Source: Deltaproteobacteria bacterium (lineage in GTDB: Bacteria > Desulfobacterota > Desulfuromonadia > Desulfuromonadales > BM103). Taken from it: DNA of 64,000 bases. Positions 10,666 to 42,496 of this stretch are shown here, one piece after another. Each line of letters opens with the position of its first letter. The stretch's first letter is position 1. The position numbers and the translations under genes are program-made. The notes under the pieces were generated by a model. The model worked only from the letters and a program-made list of their open reading frames with translations, was not told the origin of the DNA and searched no databases. Location: contig JAGXHM010000038.1 in assembly GCA_024636155.1 (NCBI GenBank), forward strand, positions 24,509-88,508, read 5' to 3'.

Positions 10666-10680
10666 TGTATACAGTATACT
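10666..10680. promoter_or_regulatory. GTATACAGTATAC palindrome upstream of atp operon (putative operator)
   Basis: GTATAC-A-GTATAC at 10667-10679, abutting TTGACT; same motif upstream of GntR gene and sfrB. Confidence 0.6.
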
Positions 10681-10719: not shown

Positions 10720-11145
10720 GTGATCAAGCTTGACTGGACACTGCTCCTGCAGTTTGTCAATTTCATGATTCTGATGGCGGTGCTCAATGCCCTGCTCTTC
10801 AAGCCGTTGCGAGCTGCTTTAAAGGCACGCAGGGATACCATTGAAGGTTCCCGGGCGAAGGTGCAGGATATCGACGAGCAGGTGCAGGCACAAATTGCTC
10901 GCTACGAAGCCCAACTTCAAGAGGCTCGTCAACAGGGCGGAGAAGAACGCTCTCTTCTGCGTAAGACGGCTCAGGAAGAAGAGGCTCGTATCCTTGGAGG
11001 TGCAAACCAGAAGTCTGCTGAAAAACTGCAGATGATCAAGGAGCAGATTCAGGAAGAGGCCGAAGTCGCCCGTCAGGCCCTGCGCAGTGAAACGAAGGCT
11101 CTGGCCAAGGATATTGCTGGCAAAGTTCTTGGGAGGGCGATCTGA
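10720..11145 (+). CDS. atpF': F0F1 ATP synthase subunit B' (GTG start)
   Basis: Short b-type subunit with single TM and long coiled coil; directly upstream of second b subunit. Confidence 0.88.
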   Translation: MIKLDWTLLLQFVNFMILMAVLNALLFKPLRAALKARRDTIEGSRAKVQDIDEQVQAQIARYEAQLQEARQQGGEERSLLRKTAQEEEARILGGANQKSAEKLQMIKEQIQEEAEVARQALRSETKALAKDIAGKVLGRAI

Positions 11146-11734
11146 TGAAACCATCCAACATTCAATCGACACTCCTCAAGGGTATGTTAATCGCCTCTCT
11201 GGTATTGGTTCCCGCCCTTGCGCTTGCTGCTGGTGGCGGTGGTCATGCTGAGAGCGGTGTTATCCTCAAAGACTTCCTCTATCGTTGCTTAAGCTTTGTT
11301 TTGATGGTTGGTCTGGTTGCTTATTTCGTGACCAAGCCGATTCGCAAAGGGCTCAAAGATCGCACGGTAGAGATTGAGAAGACTCTCGCTGATGCTCAAG
11401 CTGCTAAAGAAGCGGCAGAGGCTAAACATCGTGAATATAGTGAGAAGCTGGCCAAGGCTACAGAAGAAATTGGCTCCATCACCGCTTCGATTCGTCGTGA
11501 AGGTGAGCTTGAACGTGGAAAAATTCTGACTGCCGCTAAAGATATGGCCGTTAAAATAGAAGAGGAAGCTGAAAACAAGGCTTCCAGTGTGGTTGCCAAG
11601 GCACGCATCGAATTGCGTCAGGAAGCGGCCAACCTGGCTGTAGAGCTTGCAGAAGACATGCTTAGAAAGCAGGTCTCTGCTGACGACCAGAAACGTCTGG
11701 TCGATGAATATATGCAGAAAGTGGGAGAACTCAA

Positions 11735-11738
<4 letters not shown>
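11145..11738 (+). CDS. atpF: F0F1 ATP synthase subunit B
   Basis: N-terminal TM plus coiled coil; overlaps atpF' and atpH. Confidence 0.9.
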
Positions 11739-13811
<2,073 letters not shown>

Positions 13812-13836
13812 CAACACAATGATCGGGTAAGATGAG

Positions 13837-14712
13837 ATGGCAAATCTTAAAGACATTAAAAAACGAATAGGCACGGTCAAGAACACCCAGCAGATCACCA
13901 AGGCCATGAAAATGGTTTCGGCGGCCAAGCTGCGGCGTGCTCAGGATGCAGTTGTTGCGGCCCGTCCCTACGCGGACAAGATGGCTGATGTCCTTTCCAG
14001 CCTTGCTTTACGAGTAGATGCCGATGGCCATGCGTTGCTGGCAGAACGCGGCAAGGGCAAGGCCCTGATCGTACTGATCACTGGTGACCGTGGTCTCTGT
14101 GGCGGCTTTAATGCCAATATCTCAAAGGCCGCTGAACGGTTTATCCGTGATAATAAAGAGGGCTTTGAGAGCTATGAGCTGCTGATCGTTGGCCGTAAAG
14201 GTAACGATTATCTCAAGCGCCGCGCTGGAATGGTCATTGGCAAGGTGCACGAAAATCTGGTCGGTTCCGGCCAGGTGAGCTACCCGATTGGTGCCTTACT
14301 CGGACAAGAAGTCATCGAGCTTTATCGTAACGGTGAATACGACAGCGTCTTCCTGATTTATAACGCTTTCCAGAGCGCTATGACTCAGATCCAGACAGTG
14401 ACTCAACTGTTACCAATCGTGCCGAAGGTTGTGGACGAAGGTACGCAGCTTACCGATTATATCTACGAGCCGAATGCCACTCAGGTTTTGGATGAAATTC
14501 TGCCAAAGCACATCGAAGTGCAGATCTTTCGCTCATTGCTCGAATCCTCTGCTTCAGAACATGGCGCACGGATGACGGCTATGGATAGTGCAAGTAAGAA
14601 CGCTTCGGAAATGATTGGCAAACTGACTCTGCTGTACAACCGTGCACGTCAGGCTGCTATCACTAAGGAATTGCTGGAGATCATCTCCGGCGCAGAGTCA
14701 ATCAAGTCTTAA
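13837..14712 (+). CDS. atpG: F0F1 ATP synthase subunit gamma
   Basis: [30 protein letters not shown]. Confidence 0.98.
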
Positions 14713-16188
<1,476 letters not shown>

Positions 16189-16221
16189 TCAGTAGATTCC
16201 GGCTTAAAGGAAGATATAGGC

Positions 16222-16635
16222 ATGGCAGAAAAGCTCAAATTAGAAATGGTCACCCCCTATAAGCGCGTCTTATCGGAAGAAGTTGACGAAGTAACTGCTC
16301 CCGGTGCTGTCGGTGAGTTTGGTGTGCTTCCTGACCATACTTCCCTGCTGACCACCTTAAAGGTCGGCGAACTGACCTACAAGCAGGGCACTGAGACGTT
16401 TCGCGTTGCTGTGAACTGGGGTTATGTGGAAGTAGAAGATAACGTCATGACCGTTTTGGTAGAAACGGCTGAACCAGCTGACCAGATTGACGTGGAACGT
16501 GCCAAAGCTGCCCTTAGTCGCGCTGAAGAAGCTCTTAAGAAGCTCACCAACGAAGACAAGGAATTCAAGATCATGGAAGCTGCGTTAGAGCGCGCCCTGA
16601 TCCGCGTTCAGGTGGCAGGAAAAACGCTTCACTGA
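16222..16635 (+). CDS. atpC: F0F1 ATP synthase subunit epsilon
   Basis: VTAPGAVGEFGVLPDHTSLLTTLKVGEL. Confidence 0.96.
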   Translation: MAEKLKLEMVTPYKRVLSEEVDEVTAPGAVGEFGVLPDHTSLLTTLKVGELTYKQGTETFRVAVNWGYVEVEDNVMTVLVETAEPADQIDVERAKAALSRAEEALKKLTNEDKEFKIMEAALERALIRVQVAGKTLH

Positions 16636-16727: not shown

Positions 16728-17501
16728 TTAACAGAATAAAGCTTTCGTCTGTTGTATGGATCGTTTCAGGTGATCAAGCGTGTGTGCCTCCAGTGTCATA
16801 CTGGGCAGTCTTGAGATACGCTGTAGTTTGATTTGTAAAGGTGTAAAGTCAATTGTTCCCTCACCAACCGGCAGGTGCTCGTCAGCTCTACCGTGGTTAT
16901 CGTGCAGATGTAGATGAAAAAGTCGTGGACTGATTGCATCCAACCACTCCGCCATAGGCCGTTTACCAAAGAGGTGCCAGTGTCCGGCATCAAAGCAGTG
17001 GCCAAACCACTCTGAATCAATTTCTTCCACCAGCTCCACCAGTAGATCAGGTGTTTCCTCATAAATATTCTCGACCGCCAAGCGACAATCACAAGCTGCC
17101 GCCTGCTCGATAAGTGGCGGAAAAAAATCCTTAGCCAGGGACTTCCATACCTGGTCAAGGTTCGGGTAGCGCCATTTATCAACGCCTGGGTGAATTACCA
17201 TTAAGTGGGCGTTCAGTTGCTCAGCGACAGATAACGATTGCTTGAGGCGGTGGTATGTTACTTGACGGATCAAAGGGTCAAGAGCACCTGGATTGAGATC
17301 GAAGAAGGGCGCGTGCACTGTTGGCCTGATCGCGGCTGTTGCAAGAATCTGCGCTACATGGTCGAGAAGGGTTGGGTCTAAAGTGTCAAGCTCTGGTCCC
17401 TTAATGGCGATTTCAGGAGCCATGTAGAGATTGAGAACCAGCTTCAGATAAGTATCAACCTGAGCCCATGGAACGTGTGCACCCAAATGGAGATTGCTCA
17501 C
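16728..17501 (-). CDS. Sugar phosphate isomerase/epimerase (AP endonuclease 2-like TIM barrel)
   Basis: HPGVDKWRYPN..., AVENIYEETPDLLVELVEEI, CFDAGHWHLFG metal-site motifs. Confidence 0.8.
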   Translation of the reverse strand: MSNLHLGAHVPWAQVDTYLKLVLNLYMAPEIAIKGPELDTLDPTLLDHVAQILATAAIRPTVHAPFFDLNPGALDPLIRQVTYHRLKQSLSVAEQLNAHLMVIHPGVDKWRYPNLDQVWKSLAKDFFPPLIEQAAACDCRLAVENIYEETPDLLVELVEEIDSEWFGHCFDAGHWHLFGKRPMAEWLDAISPRLFHLHLHDNHGRADEHLPVGEGTIDFTPLQIKLQRISRLPSMTLEAHTLDHLKRSIQQTKALFC

Positions 17502-17956
17502 AGTTGCGAACCTCCGGCAATCCTTTCAAGTTGGTGCGGGTTTTTTTCCACGACCACGAAAGGTGTTGGTCTGGATTGGAATTCGCGACAGATGCGATGC
17601 CCTATACGGCCAAAACCGCAAATGATGTAATGATCTCTGAGTTTGCTGATGCGACTTTCCAATTTCTTTCTCCCAAGAATTGTGCGCAGCTGACCTTCAA
17701 GCGTGAACTGAAGCAGACAGCTGAGGGTATAGGCAATCATGCCTGTGCCTCCGATGATCAGGACAATGGTGAATAATTTACCTTCTTGATACAGGGGTCG
17801 TACTTCATTAAAGCCAACGGTGGCCAAGGTAATGACAGTCATATAGAGGGCGTCAAATGATTGCCAGCCCTCAATTGTGCTATAGCCGAGCGTGCCGAGG
17901 GCAATGATGGTAACAAGCGAGGCAAGAGAAATGCGAAGGTGGCGAACGGGATCCAT
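17498..17956 (-). CDS. Two-TM potassium channel with severely truncated RCK/TrkA-N domain
   Basis: Pore motif TLATVGFNEV; IICGFGRIGHRICREFQ begins a TrkA-N Rossmann fold but the ORF stops about 40 residues in; ATGA overlap with next gene. Confidence 0.75.
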   Translation of the reverse strand: MDPVRHLRISLASLVTIIALGTLGYSTIEGWQSFDALYMTVITLATVGFNEVRPLYQEGKLFTIVLIIGGTGMIAYTLSCLLQFTLEGQLRTILGRKKLESRISKLRDHYIICGFGRIGHRICREFQSRPTPFVVVEKNPHQLERIAGGSQL

Positions 17957-18053
17957 GAATTACCCTTTAATATAACGTATTCGATGATAATCATGGAAAG
18001 CTTAAAAGGCAAGCAGTTAAGTGGCTTAGCTCGTTATGCCGACCAGAAAGAGC

Positions 18054-18081
18054 TTGACAATAGCTGTATACTGTATACAAT
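18054..18081 (+). promoter_or_regulatory. Promoter TTGACA-N16-TACAAT with GTATACTGTATAC palindrome in the spacer (GntR autoregulatory operator candidate)
   Basis: TTGACA 18054-18059, palindrome 18066-18078, TACAAT 18076-18081. Confidence 0.7.
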
Positions 18082-18112: not shown

Positions 18113-18814
18113 GTGCGCAGAAAACAAATAGAAAGACACCAAACGTTACGCGAAAAAATCCTGGAAACAATTCGGGATGCTATCCTGAAAGGAACCATGA
18201 AGCCAGGCGAGCGTGTTTCCGAGCCGGATTTGGCAGAACGTTTTGGCATCAGTCGAACACCAATCCGGGAGGCCTTCCGCCAGCTGGAATCGGAAGGTTA
18301 TCTGGAAGTAGTGCCACGCAAGGGAGCTGTGGTTGCGTCTCTCTCTGAGCGGGATATTGAAGAGTTTTATGCGATCAAGATAATTCTTGAAGGTTTTGCC
18401 GCCAGGATGGCCGCGGAAAAATTAACCGGGAAAGAGATTGAACGTCTTGAATCGATCAATGAGCGCCTGCACAAAATTGCCAAAGAAGGTGATGTGAAGA
18501 CCTTCTTCCGCGTTCACAATGAGTTCCATGAGGTTTTTATCAAGGCTGCCGGCAACGATAAGCTTTCGGAAATGATCAATCAGTTGGTCATGAAGTTCAA
18601 ACGTCTGCGCCTGGCCTCTTTGTCACAGCCGGGTCGCATGGAAGTTTCCATAGAAGATCATAGCGACATGATTCAGGCCTTTAAGGATCATGACGGCAAT
18701 CGTGCCGACAGTCTGATACGCCACGCAGCAACGATTGGAGCCGAGGTGTTGATTCAAAGCATGCCCCAGGCAGAAACGGAAAAAGCAAAGCTTCTTCCGC
18801 GAACTAGTCTTTAG
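18113..18814 (+). CDS. GntR family transcriptional regulator (FadR/FCD type, GTG start)
   Basis: wHTH MKPGERVSEPDLAERFGISRTPIREAFRQLESEGYLEVVPRKGAVV plus FCD helices with HNEFHEVFIKAAGN. Confidence 0.93.
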   Translation: MRRKQIERHQTLREKILETIRDAILKGTMKPGERVSEPDLAERFGISRTPIREAFRQLESEGYLEVVPRKGAVVASLSERDIEEFYAIKIILEGFAARMAAEKLTGKEIERLESINERLHKIAKEGDVKTFFRVHNEFHEVFIKAAGNDKLSEMINQLVMKFKRLRLASLSQPGRMEVSIEDHSDMIQAFKDHDGNRADSLIRHAATIGAEVLIQSMPQAETEKAKLLPRTSL

Positions 18815-18850
18815 CAAATAGCAGGCAATTGATATTTTACATGCAGAAGA

Positions 18851-18886
18851 AGAGCGGCCCGTCCATCAGGACGGGCCGCTCTTCCT
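18851..18886 (+). terminator. Strong terminator hairpin after GntR gene
   Basis: AGAGCGGCCCGTCC-ATCA-GGACGGGCCGCTCTTCCT. Confidence 0.85.
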
Positions 18887-37688: not shown

Positions 37689-40196
37689 TCAAGCCTTGGT
37701 CGCTGTAACTGTAACGCAGTTGCTGCCACTCGGGAAAATTTGCTGAATATTCATGTCGGCGAAGTTATCAGCTGCTGTGAGAAGGCCAACCGGAACCATG
37801 GCATGAATCATTACCTTGCCGCTTGCTGAACCAGCCGGACCTGTCACTTTCAGCTGACCACCATCGGCAACACCTAACTTGGCGGCGTCTTCAGGATTGA
37901 TAATGATCAGCCCAGCTGGTGCCAACTCATGGTTGGCGGCAGAGTAAGTGGTTGTTGTGCCGAACTGGAAAGGGCATTTCCCGACCAGTAGTTGCAGATC
38001 AGCAGCTTCTGGCGTCGTTAGTTCTGGTGTCGCGGCGAACAGGCTCTTCTCTGCAGGAGCATAGCCCTGTTTTGGGGTGCTAAGCCCCGCCATCTCCTGC
38101 TGGATGGCGCTTTCGCTTGGTTCGGATTTGCCAGTCAGGCGAGCAAAAAGATCGCTTAAAATGGCAAGGTCAGGACGCGCTTCGCCGGGAGGTGCTACGG
38201 CAATCCTCAGCTTGTTGACGCGCCGATCAAGGGAGGTCATACTGCCACGTTTCTCGGCAGTAGCGGCTCCGGGGAGGACAACTGTTGCCATCTCTGTCAG
38301 CTCACTGGCCAGAATATCTTGAACCACTAAGATGTCGAGTTTTGCAAGCGCTTTACGCCAGCGACTGTTCTCCGGGAAGTTGACCAACGGGTTGGTTCCG
38401 GCGAGGAAAAGGGCACGAATGGTACCTTTTTCAATTCCGTCCAGAATCCCGGTTGCATCGGCGCCACCTTCCGGTAGCGTGGTTTGCCATAAGGCCGCGA
38501 ACTTTTCTTTTCCAGCGGCATAATCTATCAGGCCGGGCAGGAATTCAGGAGCAGTACCAACCTCAATCAGACCTTGTGTGTTGCCTTTGGCGGCGATCGG
38601 GAAAAGCCCGCCGCAGTCACCTTGCAGAGCACCACTGACCAGGGCCAGGTTGACCAAGGCTGCAACACTTGCTTCCGCTTGGGTCGAGCCCATGACATCA
38701 CGACCAAAAATGATTGCTACAGAAGCAGCCTGACCGAGATGATCGGCAGCCTCTTCCAGTTGTTCACGGTTGACGCCGGTTGCAGCACAGGCTGCGTTGA
38801 GATCAAGCCCGTTCAAATATGCTTCGAGTTCAGCACGATTGGTGACGAAGCTGTTGAGAAAATCATTATCTGCCTGCCCCTTCTCGACCAGCAGTTTGGC
38901 CAGGGCACCGGCGAGATAGGCTTCACTGCCGGCACGGTACTGCAGAAAGCTTTCGGCCTGCTTGACTAATTTGGTCTGGCGTTGATTGGCGACGATCAGA
39001 CGGGTATCGTTTTTGCGGGCGGCCAACTGGACCTGCCAGTTGAGCGCCTGAGACTCGGAACGCAGATCAGCGCCAAAGACCAACACCGCCTCTGCCTGAC
39101 CGATACGATCGATGTGGTTGCTGGCACCACTCAGTTTGAGCTGTTTATGTAGTACCTTGGCGGCACGCAGGCTGCTGAAGCGGGCTTCTGAGTCAATATT
39201 GTTGCTGCCGAGAGCGACGCGGAAGAGCTTTTGAAAAAGATAGTTCTCTTCGTTGGTCAGGTGTGGAGAAGCCAGACCGGCAATGGCCTGTCCGCCTTTA
39301 TCGTCACGCAGGCTGGAGAGTTCGGTCACAACTTTATCGAGAGCGGTTTCCCATGAAGTCTCCTGTTGAGCAACCAGAGGCGCTGTCAGGCGCTGATCGC
39401 TGTTCAGATAGTCGTGGCCGAAGAAGCCACCGACACAGAGGTTGCCGTCATTAACTGTCGTGCCGTCTTCGGCAGTCACGCGCATGACTTTGCCCTGCTT
39501 GCTGTGCATGTCTACCTGGCACTGGGCCGAGCAGAGAGTACAGACTGAAGGGGTTTTGCGCAGTTCCCAGGGACGGGCTTTAAACTTGAAAGGTTTTGAA
39601 ATCATGGTGCCGGTCGGGCAGACCTGCACGCAGTTGCCGCAGAACTCACACTTGTTGAGATCCTTGTCGACAAACGCCTTGTCGCCCTTTTCGTTGACGA
39701 ACAGAGCGCTGGAGCCGATCGTTTCGTGGCAGGTTTTGACGCATTTTTCGCACATGATGCAACGGTTGGGTACCTGTTGGATCAACGGCCAGTGGTCTAT
39801 AGTGGCAGCATTGACGTCGTCAGCCTCGAATGGTTGGCGCACGACATTCTGGGAATAACAGATATCCTGCAGCTCGCACTCGCCGCCAGCATCACAGACC
39901 GGACAGTCAAGCGGGTGATTGACCAGCAGCAGTTCGACGATCTGACGTCGGATCACTGCCAGTTTCTCAGACTGGGTCGTAACAACCATACCGTCGACTG
40001 CACGGGTGTTGCAGGCGGTCATGGTTTTGTCTGCGCCCTCGACTTCAACCGCGCAGATGCGGCAGGCGCCGGTTGGGGAGACCTTTTTCAGGTAACAGAG
40101 GGTCGGGATCTTGACACCCACTCTTTCTGCAGCGTCAAGAATGGTGGCACCCGATAAAATCTGGACATCTTTGCCGTCGATCTTAAGGTTGATCAT
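37689..40196 (-). CDS. sfrA: SfrA-like NADPH oxidoreductase alpha subunit (NuoG/FdhA-type 2Fe-2S, 4Fe-4S, molybdopterin-fold protein)
   Basis: N-terminal 2Fe-2S (CYLKKVSPTGACRICAVEVEG), His-Cys cluster CELQDIC, CIMCEKCVKTC, CEFCGNCVQVCPTG; paired with sfrB. Confidence 0.85.
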   Translation of the reverse strand: MINLKIDGKDVQILSGATILDAAERVGVKIPTLCYLKKVSPTGACRICAVEVEGADKTMTACNTRAVDGMVVTTQSEKLAVIRRQIVELLLVNHPLDCPVCDAGGECELQDICYSQNVVRQPFEADDVNAATIDHWPLIQQVPNRCIMCEKCVKTCHETIGSSALFVNEKGDKAFVDKDLNKCEFCGNCVQVCPTGTMISKPFKFKARPWELRKTPSVCTLCSAQCQVDMHSKQGKVMRVTAEDGTTVNDGNLCVGGFFGHDYLNSDQRLTAPLVAQQETSWETALDKVVTELSSLRDDKGGQAIAGLASPHLTNEENYLFQKLFRVALGSNNIDSEARFSSLRAAKVLHKQLKLSGASNHIDRIGQAEAVLVFGADLRSESQALNWQVQLAARKNDTRLIVANQRQTKLVKQAESFLQYRAGSEAYLAGALAKLLVEKGQADNDFLNSFVTNRAELEAYLNGLDLNAACAATGVNREQLEEAADHLGQAASVAIIFGRDVMGSTQAEASVAALVNLALVSGALQGDCGGLFPIAAKGNTQGLIEVGTAPEFLPGLIDYAAGKEKFAALWQTTLPEGGADATGILDGIEKGTIRALFLAGTNPLVNFPENSRWRKALAKLDILVVQDILASELTEMATVVLPGAATAEKRGSMTSLDRRVNKLRIAVAPPGEARPDLAILSDLFARLTGKSEPSESAIQQEMAGLSTPKQGYAPAEKSLFAATPELTTPEAADLQLLVGKCPFQFGTTTTYSAANHELAPAGLIIINPEDAAKLGVADGGQLKVTGPAGSASGKVMIHAMVPVGLLTAADNFADMNIQQIFPSGSNCVTVTATKA

Positions 40197-40423: not shown

Positions 40424-42373
40424 CTAGTTAACTGCCAGCATGGCAACCCGGTAACAGCGCAGGCAACGCTCCGCTTCTCTGACCGCCTGACTTTCCGGCA
40501 TGGCCAGTTCGATTTCGTCGTAGTTGCTGGCGCGTTCGGCACCATCGATCTTGGGTTGATGCTCGCGATGCAGGCCACCGACGATGCCGATGTTTTCTGT
40601 TTTGTCGAACACACCAAGGTTGTTAACAATGTCCTCCATGGCATCCTCTTCATCGAGGTAGGCTTTGCCTTCAGTGAGGTAGCGATGCATGGTGCGAGCG
40701 GCTCTGTGGCCATGGCCAACGGCCAGAACGACGGTCATGGCGCCGTACTCACAGTCACCTCCGGCGAAGACACCTTCGTCATCGGTCATCATGGTGCCGC
40801 CCTTGGTGACGATACTGCTCCAGCGGGTCTGCTTAATGCCGTAGTCGCCGTCTTCCAGATAGCTGAGGTCGGGGTCCTGACCAATCGCCGGGATAACCAT
40901 GTCGCATGGGATGATATATTCGCTGCCGGCAACTTCCACCGGCCGGCGACGCACCGAGTCATCAGGTTCGCCGAGTTCCATCTTGATAACCTCGACACCG
41001 ACCACTGTGTTGTCTTCAACAATCAGACGGGTCGGGTTGCGCAGGAACTCGAACTGGACATTTTCTTCTTCAGCGTCATCAACTTCGTAGGATTCTGCTG
41101 GCATTTCCTTACGGGTCCGGCGGTAGACCAGGATTGAATCTTCACAGCCTTCGCGCAAAGCGACACGTACGCAGTCAATGGCCGTGTTGCCACCACCAAC
41201 GACGATAACACGCTTGGGTGTGACTATGTCTTCGCCCAGAGCAACGGCGCGCAGGTAGTTGATGCCGCCTTCGGAGAAGCCGGCGTAGCCTTCGTCTTCC
41301 CCTTCAACACCCATCGGCTTCGACTTGAAAGCGCCGGTGCCGAGGAAGACCGCGTCATACTGTTCTTTGAGCTCGCGTAGCGAAACGTCGCGACCAAGTT
41401 TGACGCCGTATTCGATCTCGACGCCGAGGGCAGAAATGATATCCGCTTCACGCTGTAGCAACGGGCGAGGCATACGGTAATCGGGAATGCCGACAGCTAC
41501 CGTGCCGCCGGGCTCGCTGAGCATGTCGATGATCTTGACCTTGTGCCCTTGCAGGGCCAGGTAGTAAGCACAGGTCAGACCGGCAGGACCGGCACCGACG
41601 ACGATGATTTTTTTGCCTGTTGGCTCCTTGGCTTTATGCGGCGGCTCCTGGACATGGAGCAACTCGTGGTCTGAGGCGACACGCTTGAGCACCATGATGC
41701 TGACCGGTTCGTCGATCAGGGCACGGCGGCAGGCCGTTTCGCAGGGGTGCGGACAGACACGGCCGCAGACAGCCGGGATCGGCATGCGATTGCGGATCGT
41801 ACCGAGCGCCTCATCGTGGCGATAGTCCTTGATTTCCTCTATGTAGGCCGGGATATCAATATGTGCCGGACAACGATCCATGCAGGGCGCAGTCAGTTTG
41901 TCGCGATAACTTTTGGCCTGTTTACTCTTGCGCTCACCACGCAGGAAGGCCATGTAATCATCACGGAAATATTTAACTGTATCGAGAATTGGCCTGGCAG
42001 CTGTCATGCAGAGTGTGCATTTACAGTTGTCAAGCAGATCAGACAACCCGGTCAGGGTGTCCAGATCACTCTCTTCGCCGTGTCCGGCAAGAATTCGCGC
42101 CAGCGTATCCATCATAACCCGCGTCCCACGTTTACCCGGGGTACACTTCGCACAACAGTACTTCTCCTGGACACGCTTCATATACTCAGCGGCCATGGTG
42201 ACAATATCAACATCTTTGTCCAGAACGATGACGCCGTCCCAACCCATGAAGGCGCTTACATTGCCTTCATCAAGATAGTTGCCCGGCAGCTTAAAGGCGG
42301 CTGCTTCTGGCTCACCACCCTGCCGATTGTCAATCACCTTGCCGCCCCAGCTGGAAAAAACCACTTCAGCCAA
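40424..42373 (-). CDS. sfrB: SfrB-like NADPH oxidoreductase beta subunit (NuoF C-terminal Fe-S region + GltB-type FAD/NAD(P) oxidoreductase); TTG start proposed
   Basis: YCCAKCTPGKRGTRVMMD, CMDRCPAHIDIPAYIE, VVGAGPAGLTCAYYLALQGHKV; SD GGGAGG 6 nt before TTG 42373. Confidence 0.85.
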   Translation of the reverse strand: MAEVVFSSWGGKVIDNRQGGEPEAAAFKLPGNYLDEGNVSAFMGWDGVIVLDKDVDIVTMAAEYMKRVQEKYCCAKCTPGKRGTRVMMDTLARILAGHGEESDLDTLTGLSDLLDNCKCTLCMTAARPILDTVKYFRDDYMAFLRGERKSKQAKSYRDKLTAPCMDRCPAHIDIPAYIEEIKDYRHDEALGTIRNRMPIPAVCGRVCPHPCETACRRALIDEPVSIMVLKRVASDHELLHVQEPPHKAKEPTGKKIIVVGAGPAGLTCAYYLALQGHKVKIIDMLSEPGGTVAVGIPDYRMPRPLLQREADIISALGVEIEYGVKLGRDVSLRELKEQYDAVFLGTGAFKSKPMGVEGEDEGYAGFSEGGINYLRAVALGEDIVTPKRVIVVGGGNTAIDCVRVALREGCEDSILVYRRTRKEMPAESYEVDDAEEENVQFEFLRNPTRLIVEDNTVVGVEVIKMELGEPDDSVRRRPVEVAGSEYIIPCDMVIPAIGQDPDLSYLEDGDYGIKQTRWSSIVTKGGTMMTDDEGVFAGGDCEYGAMTVVLAVGHGHRAARTMHRYLTEGKAYLDEEDAMEDIVNNLGVFDKTENIGIVGGLHREHQPKIDGAERASNYDEIELAMPESQAVREAERCLRCYRVAMLAVN

Positions 42374-42420
42374 GTTAAACCTCCCATTCAGGTCAGATAT
42401 TTCGATACAAAGAACCACAA

Positions 42421-42483: not shown

Positions 42484-42496
42484 GTATACAGTATGC
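42484..42496. promoter_or_regulatory. GTATACAGTATGC near-palindrome upstream of sfrB (putative operator)
   Basis: 12/13 match to GTATACNGTATAC; overlaps TATACAAT -10-like sequence on minus strand as at the GntR gene. Confidence 0.6.

Follow-up and report, generated by a model that had tools for sequence, protein, structure and literature searches.

Is the palindrome that lies inside the promoter of a GntR/FCD gene in this window (the whole stretch of 64,000 nucleotides that was analysed) the operator of the protein encoded by that gene, and if so, which other genes would come under its control? In relatives of Geobacter acetate oxidation is complete, with the electrons going to metals and electrodes, and it is only partly known how flux through the TCA cycle and the respiratory chain is controlled in them. 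The features of the gntR locus are as follows:

18054..18059, + strand: -35 element TTGACA of the gntR promoter (direct reading and promoter scan; hardly varying among 30 loci of the order)
18065..18079, + strand: predicted operator TGTATACTGTATACA, with the core palindrome GTATACTGTATAC at 18066-18078 and its centre at -16
18076..18081, + strand: -10 element TACAAT, sharing positions with the right operator half (direct reading and promoter scan)
18113..18814, + strand: gntR, GntR/FCD transcriptional regulator of 233 aa with a GTG start (Pfam)
18850..18883, + strand: possible terminator 3' of gntR, a G+C-rich hairpin AAGAGCGGCCCGTCC...GGACGGGCCGCTCTT, read directly

The preliminary description had reported a promoter pair holding the palindrome in its spacer, in front of the regulator's own gene, and direct reading confirmed its coordinates: the layout is TTGACA-N16-TACAAT (18054-18081), the pair was rated 11/12 in the promoter scan, and the GTG start at 18113 lies 34 nt past the palindrome. 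The hairpin after gntR was not reported by a terminator scan of the window. On the other side of the promoter, about 60 nt 5' of the gntR operator, there is a conserved block AAAAGGCAAGCAGTTA (18000-18025), which is also seen in family members and which shares bases with TTGCCT-N17-TATCAT (18012-17984), a divergent promoter predicted for an ion-channel gene at 17498-17956.

The assignment of the gene product to the GntR/FCD regulators, as made earlier from the letters, agrees with the Pfam results, in which both domains were found, viz. an N-terminal GntR winged helix-turn-helix (PF00392, 1.7e-18, residues 13-74) and a C-terminal all-helical FCD domain (PF07729, 1.5e-26), whose helices run from residue 79 on in the AlphaFold model (pLDDT 87.9, pTM 0.77). 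In a fold search with this model, the nearest structures were the FCD regulators Brucella 7u5q, PmiR and the VanR-group protein Atu1419. Within the order, most genomes have an ortholog with about 65-94% identity, while elsewhere in the class the identity is about 56-66%. The stretch ISRTPIREA, which is the HTH recognition stretch of the winged helix, is invariant in 34 orthologs, and so are His135, His139 and His183 of the FCD domain, while a C-terminal histidine varies; the correspondence of these residues to the metal site of Atu1419 (Asn137, His141, His192, His214) was judged by eye, without an alignment. The orthologs of G083, G085, G127, G048 and G126 each show one in-frame stop codon in the alignments, which may be real, a sequencing error or the end of a match.

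The form G[T/C/G]ATAC-N-GTATAC is found upstream of gntR at all of the 92 loci examined across the class. The perfect form GTATACWGTATAC is present in 30/30 gntR loci of the order, that of the window included, nearly always within TTGACA-N16-TACAAT. The further loci of named genomes with enough upstream sequence to test number 62 and are mostly from Geobacterales (with the genera Geomonas, Citrifermentans, Trichlorobacter, Oryzomonas and Pelotalea among them); the site is seen in all of them, with no more than one change. A distant locus (L192) has its site at -105, outside the TTGACA-N16 setting. When 231 distinct sites were collected with the flank positions left unconstrained, the flanking T and the flanking A were each present in 82% of them and the central position was A/T in 96%. 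Each GTATAC half is a GT-N2-AC box, and the consensus of the FCD subfamily is a single GT-N2/3-AC box, whereas here there are two, 7 bp apart; the putative operator may be read either as a palindrome of the 6-1-6 type, like that of AlkR, or as two such boxes.

The preliminary description had also stated that, besides gntR, the same 13-mer recurs in the window only upstream of atp and sfrBA. A scan of the window allowing at most two mismatches gave three matches, viz. at 10667 (exact), 18066 (exact) and 42484 (one mismatch), so that the statement holds as it stands for atp, but at sfrBA the copy is an inexact one. In shuffled versions of the window the mean was 0.44 matches, and three matches were reached in 2 of 100 shuffles. 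The two further sites and their predicted targets are:

10667..10679, + strand: predicted operator GTATACAGTATAC, exact copy upstream of the atp operon (window scan; 12 of the 15 genomes tallied have a site before atpX)
10720..16635, + strand: predicted target operon, atpX (10720-11145), atpF (11145-11738) and further ATP synthase ORFs (atpX and atpF confirmed by Pfam, the remaining ones assigned from ORF order)
42484..42496, - strand: predicted operator GCATACTGTATAC upstream of sfrBA, in the one-mismatch form GTATACAGTATGC (14 of the 15 genomes tallied have a site before sfrB)
40424..42418, - strand: predicted target, SfrB-like NAD(P)-binding oxidoreductase (name from position and domains)
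37689..40196, - strand: predicted target, SfrA-like NuoG/formate-dehydrogenase-type subunit (name from position and domains)

The assembly to which the window belongs (2.94 Mb, 72% complete) contains nine sites with at most one mismatch, and by flank reading and protein family tests these were placed before atpX, gntR, ato (a succinyl-CoA:acetate CoA-transferase-type gene), a NapC-type multiheme cytochrome, sfrB, gltA, nuoA, frdC (a b558-type sdh/frd cytochrome) and an ActP-like symporter. Since a simple count with equal base frequencies predicts about six such sites by chance in 2.9 Mb, the positions of these sites are more telling than their number. The site at the ActP-like symporter is doubtful; an inner position is broken in it and it lies about 600 nt from the ORF. 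With at most two mismatches there is no excess over the control in this genome (30 forward matches vs 48 of the control pattern), and hence only the tight motif, viz. GYATACNGTATAC or as a pattern G[TCG]ATACNGTATAC, should be counted. Isocitrate dehydrogenase was not found in this assembly and aconitase B gave weak partial matches alone, but due to the incompleteness of the assembly the lack of icd and acnB sites in it is uninformative. This genome has four other FCD genes, and no contig that carries one of them has a site with at most one mismatch.

Summed over 40 genomes, the tight motif gave 219 forward matches, while the reversed control pattern gave 5. Of the 120 sites tallied in 15 genomes, 109 are upstream of one functional set, consisting of gntR, gltA, acnB, icd, frd/sdhC, fum, mdh, ato, pyc, nuo, sfrBA, atp and glyQ; this tally was made by hand with the targets already seen, and the target list is thus partly defined by the data. 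The site precedes nuoA in all 15 genomes, sfrB and icd in 14 each, atpX and acnB in 12 each, glyQ (the glycyl-tRNA synthetase alpha subunit, e.g. in L086, L092 and L119) in 9, frdC in 7, gltA in 6 and fum in 3, and it is also seen at mdh, pyc and ato, the last of which recurs in G026. In one genome of Geobacterales (G084) the nine sites fall, without exception, on gltA, acnB, icd, frdC, fum, atpX, nuoA, gntR and sfrB. It is this recurrence across families that constitutes the evidence for the regulon. The preliminary description had suggested a dedicated energy-metabolism regulator and had named the genome-wide frequency of the motif, its conservation upstream of orthologs and its enrichment at particular genes as ways of checking this. 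In all these respects the suggestion is supported, as the tight motif is far above the control and upstream of genes, is kept before orthologs and is concentrated before genes of the TCA cycle and before nuo, sfr and atp genes. The same holds for the distribution of the site and the gene: sites are present in 49/49 genomes with gntR and absent in 14/18 genomes where gntR was not detected (Fisher p ~3e-11, a value that is overstated since related genomes are not independent). Of the four exceptions, G029, G060 and G112 keep sites at icd, gltA, nuoA or glyQ and G082 has one unassigned site; assembly gaps or a recent loss of gntR may possibly account for them.

The position of a site relative to the promoter, given here as its centre relative to a predicted, unmapped +1, bears on the sign of the regulation. 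At gntR all 46 of the promoters measured have the centre at -16, so that the autoregulatory geometry suspected earlier has been kept in every one of them, and because the operator overlaps the core promoter of its own gene, autorepression is predicted. The centres at icd (-7), acnB (-9), frdC (about +12), glyQ (+17) and atpX (about +48) are likewise over or downstream of the predicted core promoter, which predicts repression, and repression is thus what most of the predicted positions fit. However, in the order the nuoA site is centred at -54 (14/14) and the gltA site at -51/-52 (6/6), in both cases upstream of a conserved TTGACA (-35), whereas in Geobacterales these centres are at about +12 and about +15 (the latter scattered, from four sequences). 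Due to these upstream sites, which possibly indicate activation or an unusual form of repression, uniform repression is too simple a description. The positions in sfrB promoters are scattered.

Based on the comparative evidence, which is strong for both the predicted regulon and its operator, we consider it very probable that the palindrome is the operator of the adjoining GntR/FCD protein and that it marks a class-wide regulon for acetate oxidation and energy metabolism, with the binding, its sign and the effector as predictions. The protein, probably an autoregulated regulator throughout the class, would bind the 15-mer TG[T/C/G]ATAC-W-GTATACA as a dimer or higher oligomer and would repress its own promoter by covering the spacer and the -10 element. 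It would control a single regulon across the class, which serves acetate oxidation and energy conservation and includes citrate synthase, aconitase B, isocitrate dehydrogenase, succinate/fumarate oxidoreductase, fumarase and succinyl-CoA:acetate CoA-transferase, as well as complex I, SfrAB, ATP synthase and glycyl-tRNA synthetase. An effector bound in the pocket of the FCD domain, possibly a carboxylate of the TCA type, might relieve the repression, and at nuoA and gltA of the order the protein could act by activation or another mode from its site upstream of the -35 element. A further-reaching proposal would make one undescribed GntR/FCD protein the ancestral master regulator, across the whole class, of the oxidative TCA cycle, complex I, SfrAB and ATP synthase; it would repress and activate from one and the same operator, its sign at nuo and gltA would be switched between orders by the operator shift, and it would couple translation via glyQ. 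This proposal is tentative, and it is more apt to be wrong than right.

Other explanations of the same sites need to be considered together. That an A/T-rich palindrome similar to -10 elements has recurred by chance would agree with the lack of an excess at two mismatches in the window's own genome, but it is excluded for practical purposes by the abundance of the tight motif over the control and by its tie to one gene set. If, instead, another regulator such as HgtR were the main protein at the palindromes and gntR merely one more target gene, then sites at canonical targets could persist where gntR was not detected, as they do in three genomes, and the palindromes carried in relatives by the HgtR-repressed genes gltA, nuoA and atpG would be accounted for. 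However, the co-occurrence of site and gntR across the class, the presence of the site in every gntR promoter examined, and the binding of the same GTATAC core by a GntR/FCD relative (Atu1419) make this explanation very unlikely. There is a somewhat better chance that the protein acts mainly as an activator at these sites and limits itself at its own promoter. The nuoA and gltA positions of the order speak for this, but those at icd, acnB, frdC, glyQ and atpX, and at nuoA of Geobacterales, do not, and we regard it as improbable.

A different kind of alternative concerns the identity of the protein, which could be HgtR itself, or another described regulator under a different name, in which case the part of the regulon in Geobacter would already be partly known. 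HgtR (GSU3364) of Geobacter sulfurreducens is reported to be a repressor of gltA, nuoA and atpG. The overlap of these genes with the predicted targets is close, but text searches of the literature for the palindrome motif found no relevant paper. HgtR is, to our knowledge, a separate protein of no known family, and an identity of the two is unlikely, while still being the most probable of these alternatives. Another regulator of G. sulfurreducens, GSU0514, represses the TCA enzyme succinyl-CoA synthetase; it was rejected as the identity of the GntR protein, as it is described as a member of the IclR family.

Characterised FCD proteins provide the closest precedents for the proposed regulator. 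Atu1419 of Agrobacterium fabrum, a GntR/FCD protein of the VanR group, binds ATGTATACAT, with the core GTATAC; in its own promoter a copy is located between -10 and -35, and at its targets further copies cover the -10. The effector of Atu1419 is methylenetetrahydrofolate, citrate having been taken up fortuitously (PMC7797058). It thus shares with the GntR protein the GntR HTH plus FCD architecture, the GTATAC core and the site in its own promoter spacer. However, the identity is about 23%, its operator is one 10-bp box vs the two GTATAC boxes 7 bp apart here, and it represses three hydroxycinnamate genes vs the predicted energy regulon. PmiR of Pseudomonas aeruginosa (PDB 7xp0, 7xp1), for which the title of a cited reference reports 2-methylisocitrate sensing, is the best PDB sequence match (4.7e-29, about 31-33% identity) and is among the best fold matches. 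The FCD repressor NanR of Escherichia coli acts on closely spaced GGTATA repeats that are reminiscent of the tandem GTATAC boxes, but these are direct repeats and its regulon is that of sialic acid (PMC8012715); its sequence match to the GntR protein is weak (6.5e-4).

Relative to these precedents, what is new is a predicted class-wide GntR/FCD regulator of a known type with a broad and coherent putative regulon. One conserved operator before nearly a whole pathway is a direct handle on it, by way of one gene or one 13-bp site, with growth, current and metal reduction as readouts, and the shift of the operator between orders is a natural test of a change of sign in a regulon whose members remain constant.

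Some individual sites have additional features. A few adjoin cytochrome, IrrE-type peptidase or unassigned ORFs (L091/L093 in G029, L110 in G016, L207 in G049 and L222 in G064). The perfect site at position 2502 of L103 has a biotin-carboxylase/pyruvate-carboxylase-type gene 345 nt downstream and, on its opposite side, an ORF that was named TetR-like by eye. In nuoA promoters of the order (e.g. L007, position 1501) a third overlapping half site extends the sequence to GCATACAGTATACTGTATTT, giving three boxes in 7-bp steps.
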